Below, one piece after another: positions 12,117 through 15,854 of a DNA stretch of 64,000 nucleotides. The stretch lies in NCBI GenBank assembly GCA_001184205.1, contig LBMP01000002.1, forward strand, positions 390,726-454,725. Direction: 5' to 3'. The notes below the pieces were generated by a model that was not told the origin of the DNA, did not search any database, and saw only the letters and a list, made by a program, of their open reading frames with translations. A program made the translations under genes and the position numbers. The stretch comes from Desulfocarbo indianensis. GTDB lineage: Bacteria > Desulfobacterota > Desulfarculia > Desulfarculales > Desulfarculaceae. Each line of letters starts with the position of its first letter. Position 1 is the stretch's first letter.

Positions 12117-13031
12117 TTATCCCTCGAAATACCTGGGCGTCACCGGCAGGCGGCCGGCCGGCTCTTGCCATTTCTCATCGGGCCAGCCCAGGGCGATACA
12201 GGCGTACACGGTTTCCTCGTTCGGGATGCCCGCCCGTTGCTTCAGGCCGGGCTGGTTGGCCATCACCGCCACCACGTAGCCGATGAGGCAGGAGCCCAGG
12301 CCCATGGCGTGGGCGGCCAGGATCACCTGGCCGGAGGCCAACAGCGCGTCCTCGGCCGGGCAGGAGGCTCCGGGCCGCGAGCTCACGATGATGGCCGCGG
12401 GCGCGCCGTGAAAGAGGCGCTCCCGGCCGCTGGCCTGCCACTCGTCCAGCGCCCGGCATACCGATTCGTAGTGCTCATGAAAATAAACATACAGTTCGGG
12501 CTTGCCCAGGGCCTTCAGCAGGCCGCGCAGCCAGGGCTTGGCGGCCTTGGCGTTGAGGTCCCGGAAAAATTCTCCCATGGGCCGGGCCAGGGCCAGCACC
12601 GCCTGGCGGGTGGGCAGGATGGTGAAGCTCCAACGCTGGCTGTTGGTGCCGGACGGCGCGGTTATGCCGATCTTGACCAGGTCTTCCAGCATCTCGCGGG
12701 GCACGGGCTTGTCTTGATAATTGCGGCAGGAGCGGCGGGAACGCATGAGCCGCGCCAGTTGGGCCACCTCGGGCTGGCCAAAGGGCAGCCAGCGGTTGTC
12801 CGCGGCAAAGGTCTTGAACTCCAGGGCCGACTCCGGCAAGAAGGGCAGCTCCACCGCGCCCGCCGGGCAGACCGCCGCGCAGTGGCCGCAATAGAGCGAG
12901 CGGTCGCCCACCACCTGGGCCACGCCATCCACCAGGCCCAGGGCCTGGGTGGGGCAGACCCGGACGCACTCGCCGCAGCCGACGCACAGGTCCTCTCGGA
13001 TTATGGTGCGGACCGGCTGATCACTGGCCAT
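12117..13031 (-). CDS. Ferredoxin-domain nitroreductase
   Basis: 304 residues. The N-terminal two-cluster ferredoxin part has CVGCGECVRVCP (about residue 16) and CGHCAAVCP (about 48). The nitroreductase fold follows, with SRRSCRNYQDKPVPREMLE (about 98), APSGTNSQRW for FMN binding, and a C-terminal GWPDEKW. Such fusions use ferredoxin-type electrons to reduce a flavin-bound substrate; the substrate is unknown. GGGGGAA precedes ATG 13031. It starts 5 bases after the PlsB-like stop, so the two are one transcription unit. Confidence 0.9.
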   Translation of the reverse strand: MASDQPVRTIIREDLCVGCGECVRVCPTQALGLVDGVAQVVGDRSLYCGHCAAVCPAGAVELPFLPESALEFKTFAADNRWLPFGQPEVAQLARLMRSRRSCRNYQDKPVPREMLEDLVKIGITAPSGTNSQRWSFTILPTRQAVLALARPMGEFFRDLNAKAAKPWLRGLLKALGKPELYVYFHEHYESVCRALDEWQASGRERLFHGAPAAIIVSSRPGASCPAEDALLASGQVILAAHAMGLGSCLIGYVVAVMANQPGLKQRAGIPNEETVYACIALGWPDEKWQEPAGRLPVTPRYFEG

Positions 13032-13036
13032 GGGCT

Positions 13037-15523
13037 TTATTCCCCCCAGAGGGCGGCGTGGGCTTCATTCAGGATGGGCAGCGCCAGGCCCGCCCGCTTG
13101 GCCACCCGGTGGGCGGCGTCCAGATCGTAATAGGATTGCAGCTTGAGGCCCTGGTCGGCCATCTGCCGCACTATCTTTTCGGCGGCCTTGGCCAGATCGC
13201 CGCTTTTCTTGGCGGCGGAAAGCAGCGCCTTGGCGAAATCCCTGGCCGGCCCCCCCAGGCCGCACGCCGTGTAGACCGCGGTCCAGGCGGCCGAGCCCGC
13301 GGCCATGCTCTCCTCCTTGCCGCCCAGGGCCTTCACCAGGCGCGCCGCCTCGGCCGCGGCCTTGGCGGAGAAATGCCCGACCTTGGCGGAATCCTTGAGA
13401 TGGCCTTGGCGCTGCTTGACGTTGGCCCACAGGGCGTAGACCCGGGCCAGCACCGCCGCCGCCTGGATGCCCAGGGGATCGCCGCTCAGCTCCACCCCCA
13501 AAGGCGGCCAGGAAAACAGGTCGGCCAATTCCTCGCGGCCCGGCGAGGGCCCGCCCAGGACGCCCAGGGCCTCCTGGCCCTGCACCAGGTCCTGCTCGGT
13601 CACCGGGCCCACCAGGGCGTAGACTTCCACGTCGTCGCGGCCCATCTCCCTGGCCAGGTCCTCTACCACCTGACAGGGCAGGCGCTGGCTGTCCGGCTCG
13701 AAGCCGCAAGTGACCACCACCACCCGCAGCCTTTGCTCGGCGTGCTCCAGCATGGCGCGGGTCTTGGCCGGCAGGTCGCGGGGCGCCGAAGCCAGGACCA
13801 CCTCCGAGGCCTTGCGAAAAGCGCTGGGCGGGTCGCTGGTCACGAAGGCGTTCTTGGGCAGGCGGTGATCCTCGAAACGGCCGGGCGGCCGGCGGGTGAT
13901 GCCCATTTCCTGGGCCACCTCGGGCCGCGAATCATACAGGGTGAGGCTGGCGTTGAGATAGCGCTTCTCGTCCAGCATGCGGTTGCCCACCAGACAGGTG
14001 AGGGCGAACCCCCAGTCGTTGGCCCCCACCACCACGATGTTCTGGTCGGCGGTGGGCGAGTAGATGCGCCGGTCGCCGTGGGTGGCGTAGAAGGCCAGGC
14101 CGGCCTCGCTTTTTACGGCGGGCAGGCCGGCTTCATCGCGCCGCCAGCGCTCCAGCACCGCCCGTTTCTTGAGGGTCTTCAAGCCGTCGGCCACCACGGC
14201 GGCGGTGTCGCGCTCGCGGATGAAGTCCTCCAGGTCGGGCTCCTGGCCAAAGGCGGCCTGGTGATACTCGAACAGGAGTTCTTTTTCATATTCCACCGCC
14301 GCGGCCAAATCCGGCTTGCCGCCCGCGGCGCCGGCGTCCTTGGCCTGGCGGCGGGCTCGCAGCAGCCCTCGCGCCACCAATTGGCTGGCCATCACCTTTT
14401 TGGCGCGGGCTATTTCGCGGATGGCGTAGAGCGCCACGTATTCATCCATTGACAAACCGCCGGGGTCGGCGAGATGGCGTTCTTTCAATTGCGAGAGCAA
14501 AACCGGCCGGGGCATGGTCACCACGGCCCGGCCGTAGATATTCTGCGCCGAGCGCCACACCCAGGAGCGGGGATGCAGGGGCAGGCGGGCCAGGGTGCGC
14601 CAAAAGCCCATGCCGCGCAGCCAGCACATGGCGCCCTTGCGCGCCGCCAGGGAGAGATCCTCCGGCACCACGGAATAGGAAACCGCCACCGGCTGCACCA
14701 CCAGTTCCTGGTCCGTGGCCAGGGCCCCGCGCAGGGTCACCAGGCGGCGGGGATAGCGCAGGCTGCCGTCGCGGCTGCGCGCCCCGCCGTGCCAGGCCTC
14801 CAGGAAAATCGCCTGCTGCCCGCCGGACTGGCTGACCGCCCGGCAATAGTTGAAAAGGGCCGCCAGGGCCTGCCGCGAAGCGCCCCGGCGCTGCACCACG
14901 TAGGAGCCGATGCGCAGAACCTTTTCCAGGCTTTTGATGGCCATCATGTTCTGGCCGGCCGCGAAAAGTGGCAGGCCCAGGCCGACGTTCATGGTCAAGA
15001 CGTCCACCAGGAACTCATCCAGATGGGACGAGTGGTTCACCAGATACACCACGCCCAATCCCTGGCGGCGGTATCCCTTGAGTTCTTCCAGGTGGGCCAG
15101 GTCGCGGCCGTCTGGCGAGGTGAAGGGGCGATTGGGGTCGGCCTGCTCGTAAAGGCCGTTCATGATGGTGGCGACCGCGGTGGTGCCCAGCTTGTGTATC
15201 TCGTGGTCATAATGATGGGTGACCTGGGCCACCAGTTCCTTAATCTCGTTTTCCTTGGGGGCTTCGCCGTTTTCCGCGGCCAGTTGCTCCATGGTGAGCT
15301 TCACGGCCAGCTGGTCCAGTTCCTCGCGGTTGGGCCATTCCTGGGGGATGTCGGAAAAACGCTCCAGCCAGGGGCGGCCGGATTCGGATTCGGCGATGCG
15401 CCGCAAGAGCTTCACGAAGTCGACGCGCTCGGCCAGAGTGGCCACCTTGCGGCTGAAGGATTTTTTCAGCCGGCGGCTCAATGAGGCGCGGCGTTTATCC
15501 TTGGCATTTCCCTGCGCGGCCAT
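13037..15523 (-). CDS. PlsB-like acyltransferase fused to a GpsA-like domain
   Basis: 828 residues from ATG 15523 (GGGAGG seven bases upstream; the in-frame start at 15550 is weaker). Residues about 130-370 form a glycerophosphate acyltransferase domain with the catalytic HX4D block NHSSHLDEF (about 163) and FLEAWHGGARSRDG, the PlsB-type block 3. From about 490 a second domain resembles NAD-dependent glycerol-3-phosphate dehydrogenase: VVGANDWGFALTCLVG matches the GxGxWGxAL Rossmann motif, and the C-terminal helical domain ends with AKRAGLALPILNEAHAALW. By eye, the catalytic lysine (GGAxKN) and the NRRFG segment are not conserved. It may make and acylate glycerol-3-phosphate, or sense it. Confidence 0.8.
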   Translation of the reverse strand: MAAQGNAKDKRRASLSRRLKKSFSRKVATLAERVDFVKLLRRIAESESGRPWLERFSDIPQEWPNREELDQLAVKLTMEQLAAENGEAPKENEIKELVAQVTHHYDHEIHKLGTTAVATIMNGLYEQADPNRPFTSPDGRDLAHLEELKGYRRQGLGVVYLVNHSSHLDEFLVDVLTMNVGLGLPLFAAGQNMMAIKSLEKVLRIGSYVVQRRGASRQALAALFNYCRAVSQSGGQQAIFLEAWHGGARSRDGSLRYPRRLVTLRGALATDQELVVQPVAVSYSVVPEDLSLAARKGAMCWLRGMGFWRTLARLPLHPRSWVWRSAQNIYGRAVVTMPRPVLLSQLKERHLADPGGLSMDEYVALYAIREIARAKKVMASQLVARGLLRARRQAKDAGAAGGKPDLAAAVEYEKELLFEYHQAAFGQEPDLEDFIRERDTAAVVADGLKTLKKRAVLERWRRDEAGLPAVKSEAGLAFYATHGDRRIYSPTADQNIVVVGANDWGFALTCLVGNRMLDEKRYLNASLTLYDSRPEVAQEMGITRRPPGRFEDHRLPKNAFVTSDPPSAFRKASEVVLASAPRDLPAKTRAMLEHAEQRLRVVVVTCGFEPDSQRLPCQVVEDLAREMGRDDVEVYALVGPVTEQDLVQGQEALGVLGGPSPGREELADLFSWPPLGVELSGDPLGIQAAAVLARVYALWANVKQRQGHLKDSAKVGHFSAKAAAEAARLVKALGGKEESMAAGSAAWTAVYTACGLGGPARDFAKALLSAAKKSGDLAKAAEKIVRQMADQGLKLQSYYDLDAAHRVAKRAGLALPILNEAHAALWGE

Positions 15524-15854
15524 GAGGTGCCCTCCCGGCCGGGCCTTCAAGCCCGAAATTTATATCTGAAATCAGCGCTGGAAAGCGGCGCAGGCGTCCG
15601 CCCGGCCAGGCTCGACTGCCAAACCTAACCCACCAGCCGGTGAGGCGCAAGCTGTTTCTAGGATGGAGAAAATCCAGACTGGATCGCCATGAATCGCGTT
15701 CAGCGCCGCCAGGCCGCGCCGCCTAAATACGCGGCTCGCAAACCGCGAGGCCGGCGCCGGAAGCCCGCCGCGTCCGCGCCTGAGCCGCCCCATGGGCCGG
15801 CGCCCGCGGGCGGCTCGAGCCGTCCGCGGCTGCCCGGCCTTGCCCGGCGGCGCT
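15524..15854. other. Intergenic region with no convincing gene
   Basis: 331 bases upstream of the PlsB-like gene and downstream of the VOC gene. A 61-codon plus-strand frame (15689-15874) is almost all Arg, Pro, Ala and Gly and looks like chance GC-rich sequence. I see no clear promoter, repeat or RNA gene; the PlsB-like promoter must lie here. Confidence 0.5.

Follow-up and report, generated by a model that had tools for sequence, protein, structure and literature searches.

The window, a stretch of 64,000 nucleotides from one contig of Desulfocarbo indianensis, carries on its reverse strand an open reading frame at positions 13037-15523 that starts with ATG and encodes 828 residues; the ATG, at 15523, is preceded on the same strand by GGGAGG (15531-15536), a likely ribosome-binding site. 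By its Pfam matches and its homologues the gene joins a PlsB-type acyltransferase to a GpsA-like half that appears to be a pseudo-dehydrogenase, and all features of the gene given below lie on the reverse strand. An initial annotation of the locus had described an acyltransferase fused to a degenerate GpsA, a description that proved right by Pfam, by the fold matches of an AlphaFold model (mean pLDDT 85.8, built from 27 family members) and by residue alignment. Between the two halves runs a linker (residues 346-490, 14054-14488) with a strongly conserved FYAxHxDRRxY segment. Two adjacent genes were ruled out as the source of this architecture, as a single continuous frame is found in every relative uncut by a contig end. 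Directly downstream of the fusion lies a gene for a nitroreductase with an N-terminal 4Fe-4S ferredoxin domain (12117-13031, reverse strand).

We searched 395 phylum genomes by protein sequence, with four named metagenome-assembled genomes besides. The phylum genomes gave 28 matches, 24 of them fusions and four standalone GpsA; the architecture of the window protein recurs in 23 other phylum genomes and in the four metagenome-assembled ones. We distinguish three types, which share the conserved linker segment: type A in families f1 (that of the window) and f2, type B in f57 and type C in f15, with A1 denoting f1 and its named relatives. No fused relatives were found in viral contigs and plasmids, and no description of a PlsB-GpsA fusion was found in open-licence papers. 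Weak GpsA scores in sixteen genomes (f31, f68 and others) suggested further fusions, which we rejected: in 14 of them the open frame spans no more than 396-427 aa, and the ten that were read in sequence hold a divergent standalone GpsA. The divergent standalone proteins at loci L122-L137 (f31, f68, f75, f94, f95, f105, f106) are ~400 aa long, contain IIGPGRLGTxFAYKFGRD and ALKN, and score far below canonical GpsA.

The acyltransferase domain occupies residues 141-345 (14489-15103). Pfam Acyltransferase (PF01553) matches residues 152-281 at 30.8 bits, above the curated cut-off, and the front part of the model has the GPAT fold, matching human GPAT1 (8e4y) with Z 27.5 over 391 residues at an rmsd of 4.6. 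The HX4D motif, intact as initially annotated, is H164-S-S-H-L-D169 (15017-15034), with His and Asp present in 20/20 aligned type-A proteins. The motif III region FLEAWHGGARSRDG (residues 240-253, 14765-14806), located by alignment to GPAT1 and PlsB, retains the arginine of EGTRSR (R249) and the motif glycine, and has G246 in place of the glutamate, so that the E-G-x-R expected of PlsB and GPAT is incomplete; this loss had been overlooked. The glutamate position is Gly in all type-A proteins and Tyr in all those of types B and C. According to a review, replacing this glutamate by Ala or Gln in mouse GPAT1 reduces activity markedly without abolishing it, and its replacement by Gln or Asp in human AGPAT1 removes activity (PMC4280512). 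The PlsB equivalog model TIGR03703 scores the window protein at 34.7 bits against a cut-off of 618.5, a value reached by none of the 395 phylum genomes.

The second half consists of a Rossmann domain (residues 491-650, 13574-14053) and a helical domain (residues 651-828, 13040-13573), matched above curated cut-offs by NAD_Gly3P_dh_N (PF01210, residues 496-650, 44.2 bits) and NAD_Gly3P_dh_C (PF07479, residues 682-825, 27.5 bits). Residues 492-828 of the model match Coxiella GpsA (3k96_A) with Z 35.6 over 308 residues at an rmsd of 2.6, which upholds the two GpsA-like domains of the initial annotation as one complete fold; the structure of a GPD1 R269A mutant (6pyp) is among the matches of the fold search. 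The active site on this fold is incomplete. At the first lysine position TKG has become TCG (C606, 13706-13708), and at the second ALKN has become VLAR (A693, 13445-13447), within VLARV and thus at the AAVLAR to which the lysine had been assigned by eye. The aligned Asp and Thr are V750 and C754, and the substrate-phosphate Arg of GGRN / SRN is P759 (13247-13249). We take the lysines, Asp, Thr and Arg at these positions to be the catalytic residues of GpsA and GPD1; the window protein lacks both lysines (TKG, ALKN) on which GpsA activity depends. Each of the two is absent from 20/20 aligned type-A proteins, so their loss characterises the family and is no error confined to this locus. Homologues from both families show the same losses with their frames open, which likewise rules out a sequencing or frame artefact. 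The first position is Lys in 17/17 type-B loci, in 2/2 type-C proteins and in all standalone GpsA aligned.

The dinucleotide loop (residues 500-505, 14009-14026) reads GANDWG, where most relatives have GAGxWG. Its first two glycines are kept in 12/13 A1 proteins and in most A2 proteins, whereas the lysines are gone in all; some f2 proteins have an altered loop. Among the aligned A1 members, only the window protein has lost the middle Gly. From the replaced catalytic residues we propose that the GpsA domain of the window protein can no longer reduce DHAP, though the fold is kept. Of the two options initially put forward for this half, we hold a bifunctional enzyme whose active site has changed to be unlikely in the window protein, which has lost at least five catalytic positions and whose genome has a separate intact gpsA; the lost residues on a retained GpsA fold support the pseudoenzyme of the other option, for which sensing of substrate would be a possible role. 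Annotating type-A genes as GpsA, as their Pfam matches invite, would be wrong.

The two halves have diverged at opposite relative rates in the different types. Mean identity within A1 falls from 66% in the acyltransferase domain to 53% in the Rossmann and 41% in the helical domain; within type B it rises from 62% to 78% and 82%. The ratio of GpsA to acyltransferase distance has a median of 1.70 in type A (1.00-2.52; above 1 in 190/190 pairs) and 0.65 in types B and C together (0.38-0.81; above 1 in 0/15), and is 0.45 in an enlarged set of 16 type-B proteins (above 1 in 0/119). Because pairs have history in common, none of these pair counts amounts to a set of independent tests. The GpsA half of type A is also more divergent than the standalone GpsA of the same genomes in 100/105 pairs. 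Such faster divergence, relative to both the acyltransferase half and the standalone enzyme, is what a functionless remnant decaying at a tolerant C-terminus would display. However, in both families every type-A genome carries the half uninterrupted and at full length, the model shows the fold entire, and dN/dS in six close pairs is 0.09-0.39, well under 1, which indicates that it is still constrained; we consider a mere remnant improbable. In trees of either half the fused and standalone domains are split with support of 100/100, as would fit a single fusion event; long branches meet in both trees and the root is unplaced.

In a narrower version of the explanation we favor below, the GpsA half of type A would be a pseudoenzyme with a regulatory role: by binding NAD(H), DHAP or G3P it would adjust the acyltransferase to redox or glycolytic conditions. 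Its fold is retained and constrained, and type A as a whole has preserved the dinucleotide loop better than the lysines; against this, the loop is altered in the window protein and in some f2 proteins, the substrate pocket residues are gone, so that DHAP binding is unlikely, and structural support alone would account for the constraint. We regard such a sensing role as conceivable but rather unlikely.

Gene content elsewhere in the genomes differs between the types. A separate strong GpsA is present in all 17 type-A genomes searched, that of the window included, and the window genome also has both PlsX and PlsY; these were the companion genes that the initial annotation had suggested looking for. 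PlsX and PlsY occur together in 9/10 f1 genomes, the exception being G146. PlsY is absent from G146 and from 7/7 f2 genomes, as is PlsX apart from one weak match in G219 (1e-15), and in this same set the PlsB model matches the fusion only. Other acyltransferase-family genes sampled in f2 are of the Aas and PlsC/OlsA types, leaving the fusion as the sole GPAT candidate in 7/7 f2 genomes by searches for PlsB, PlsX and PlsY. Across the phylum, 36/395 genomes lack both PlsY and a full PlsB; type A is present in eight of the 36, all sampled f2 genomes among them, and a number of the remaining 28 are incomplete assemblies. Type A may thus supply the missing first acyltransferase of f2, a bacterial family with neither PlsY nor another PlsB.

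Judged from sequence and gene content, the fusion in the window probably acts as a glycerol-3-phosphate acyltransferase that carries a pseudo-dehydrogenase. For type A as a whole the case for a GPAT is best in f2 and poorest in f1, where PlsX and PlsY coexist with the fusion; in those genomes the fusion is not the only route, and its substrate may differ. Along this line, the type-A acyltransferase half could acylate another lipid precursor, with f2 relying on an unrecognised GPAT. The replacement of the motif III glutamate in all type-A proteins would agree with such a role, as would the PlsX and PlsY of f1, but that would leave f2 without any known kind of GPAT, and no other part of the protein is as well conserved as the acyltransferase half. 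We consider this doubtful and retain glycerol 3-phosphate as the probable acceptor.

Types B and C show the converse. Type B keeps both catalytic sets, HX4D and the GpsA site, except for the motif III glutamate; a wider search of its class found the fusion in 18/18 f57 genomes and in 0/24 genomes of f33, with the GpsA residues kept in 17/17 type-B loci and HX4D in the 16/16 that cover the region. A type-B model has the same pair of folds as the window protein (Z 39.4 to GpsA, 26.5 to GPAT1). Type C keeps the GpsA lysines and has YX4D for HX4D in 3/3 proteins. Neither the intact dehydrogenase of these relatives nor the loss of the acyltransferase histidine in f15 was visible to the initial annotation. 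The genomes of both types encode PlsB separately, as a protein of 865-926 aa that contains HX4D, and no PlsX, PlsY or GpsA match besides the fusion was found in them. The G116 fusion runs into a contig end, and no GpsA C-domain was found in that genome. Fifty-three of the 395 genomes, including those of f33 (same class as f57, and likewise without the fusion), have no GpsA match at all, so a missing separate gpsA is not proof that a fused one is used. The f33 genomes (e.g. G032, G069, G131 and G158) are 97-100% complete and have PlsB, with neither a GpsA-family match nor the fusion. Short PlsB-like proteins of ~480-520 aa occur at L116, L117 and L118 and in f28 genomes; in f15 they stand alongside full PlsB.

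The motifs of type B raise another reading, a bacterial route to lysophosphatidate by way of acyl-DHAP: the acceptor of the acyltransferase half would be DHAP or some other molecule, and the GpsA-like half would act, or once have acted, as an acyl-DHAP reductase. Motif I of type B, H-x-S-Y-[FY]-D, resembles the published DHAPAT motif H[+][S/T]Y-hydrophobic-D, as distinct from the H[+]SH-hydrophobic-D of mitochondrial GPATs (PMC4207751), and the order of the domains, acyltransferase then reductase, fits. Type A, however, has the GPAT-like HSSHLD and lacks the catalytic lysines, so it could not carry out a reduction by the known mechanism, and the lack of another GpsA in type-B and type-C genomes suggests ordinary G3P formation. 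We judge this route highly unlikely.

The surroundings of the gene vary with the type. In type B (L152, L153, L154 and L155, f57) they are conserved: glycosyltransferase 2, a protein of unknown function, the fusion, an HD/OB-fold protein and a peptide-chain release factor. The f2 fusions lie near genes for a phosphoribosyltransferase and a DUF3426 protein, and some of those in f1 near an aminotransferase class IV gene. Among the neighbours no link to lipid synthesis was found across the types. In G015 a glycerophosphodiester phosphodiesterase (GDPD) gene (L139:5308-6213) lies close upstream of the fusion on the same strand, with one gene call between them.

Taken together, the folds, the residue losses, the opposite rates and the gene content of the genomes form the basis of the explanation that we hold to be the likely one: an ancestral fusion leading from DHAP to lysophosphatidate has been reduced in opposite directions, leaving in the window a G3P acyltransferase with a dead GpsA domain. 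We envision that a single chain in the ancestor would have formed G3P and then acylated it. Where the lineage retained a separate gpsA, the fused dehydrogenase would have lost its active site (type A); where a separate PlsB was kept and no separate GpsA, it would have stayed intact (types B and C), with the acyltransferase histidine lost in type C, a complementary pattern of gene content that rests on four families. In the window protein the His/Asp pair of HX4D would most likely acylate glycerol 3-phosphate, the first step of phospholipid synthesis, and the pseudo-dehydrogenase may be kept for structure or regulation. The glycine at the motif III glutamate, a residue important in GPAT1 and AGPAT1, counts against this explanation. 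A bolder version joins the reciprocal loss of active sites from one ancestral bifunctional enzyme to a type-A dehydrogenase turned NAD(H)-responsive regulator of the first phospholipid step; we think it unlikely that both parts hold. Under the explanation we favor, type B would be a possible active bifunctional enzyme, type A an acyltransferase with a pseudo-dehydrogenase and type C a dehydrogenase with a pseudo-acyltransferase. The family would then offer a natural experiment on fused enzymes: either half seems to decay when another gene of the genome provides its activity.

Among known systems, PlsB and GPAT1 share with the window protein the acyltransferase fold with a preceding helical part, HX4D, the motif III Arg and the motif IV Pro; the window protein differs in its motif III Gly and in the GpsA domain that follows the acyltransferase. 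In the tree, the acyltransferase halves of the fusions form a group separate from PlsB of the same phylum. With GpsA and GPD1 the window protein has the complete two-domain fold in common, but both lysines and the substrate-site Asp, Thr and Arg are replaced. The Dunaliella enzyme DsGPDH (6iuy; fold match Z 35.2) also contains a glycerol-3-phosphate dehydrogenase within a longer polypeptide, 585 residues of it in the structure; there the partner is a phosphatase-like domain and not an acyltransferase. DHAPAT/GNPAT is eukaryotic and peroxisomal and is not known to be fused to a dehydrogenase. It belongs to the same acyltransferase superfamily, and its published motif (PMC4207751) is approached by the HxSYxD of type B, whereas type A has the GPAT-like HxSHxD.
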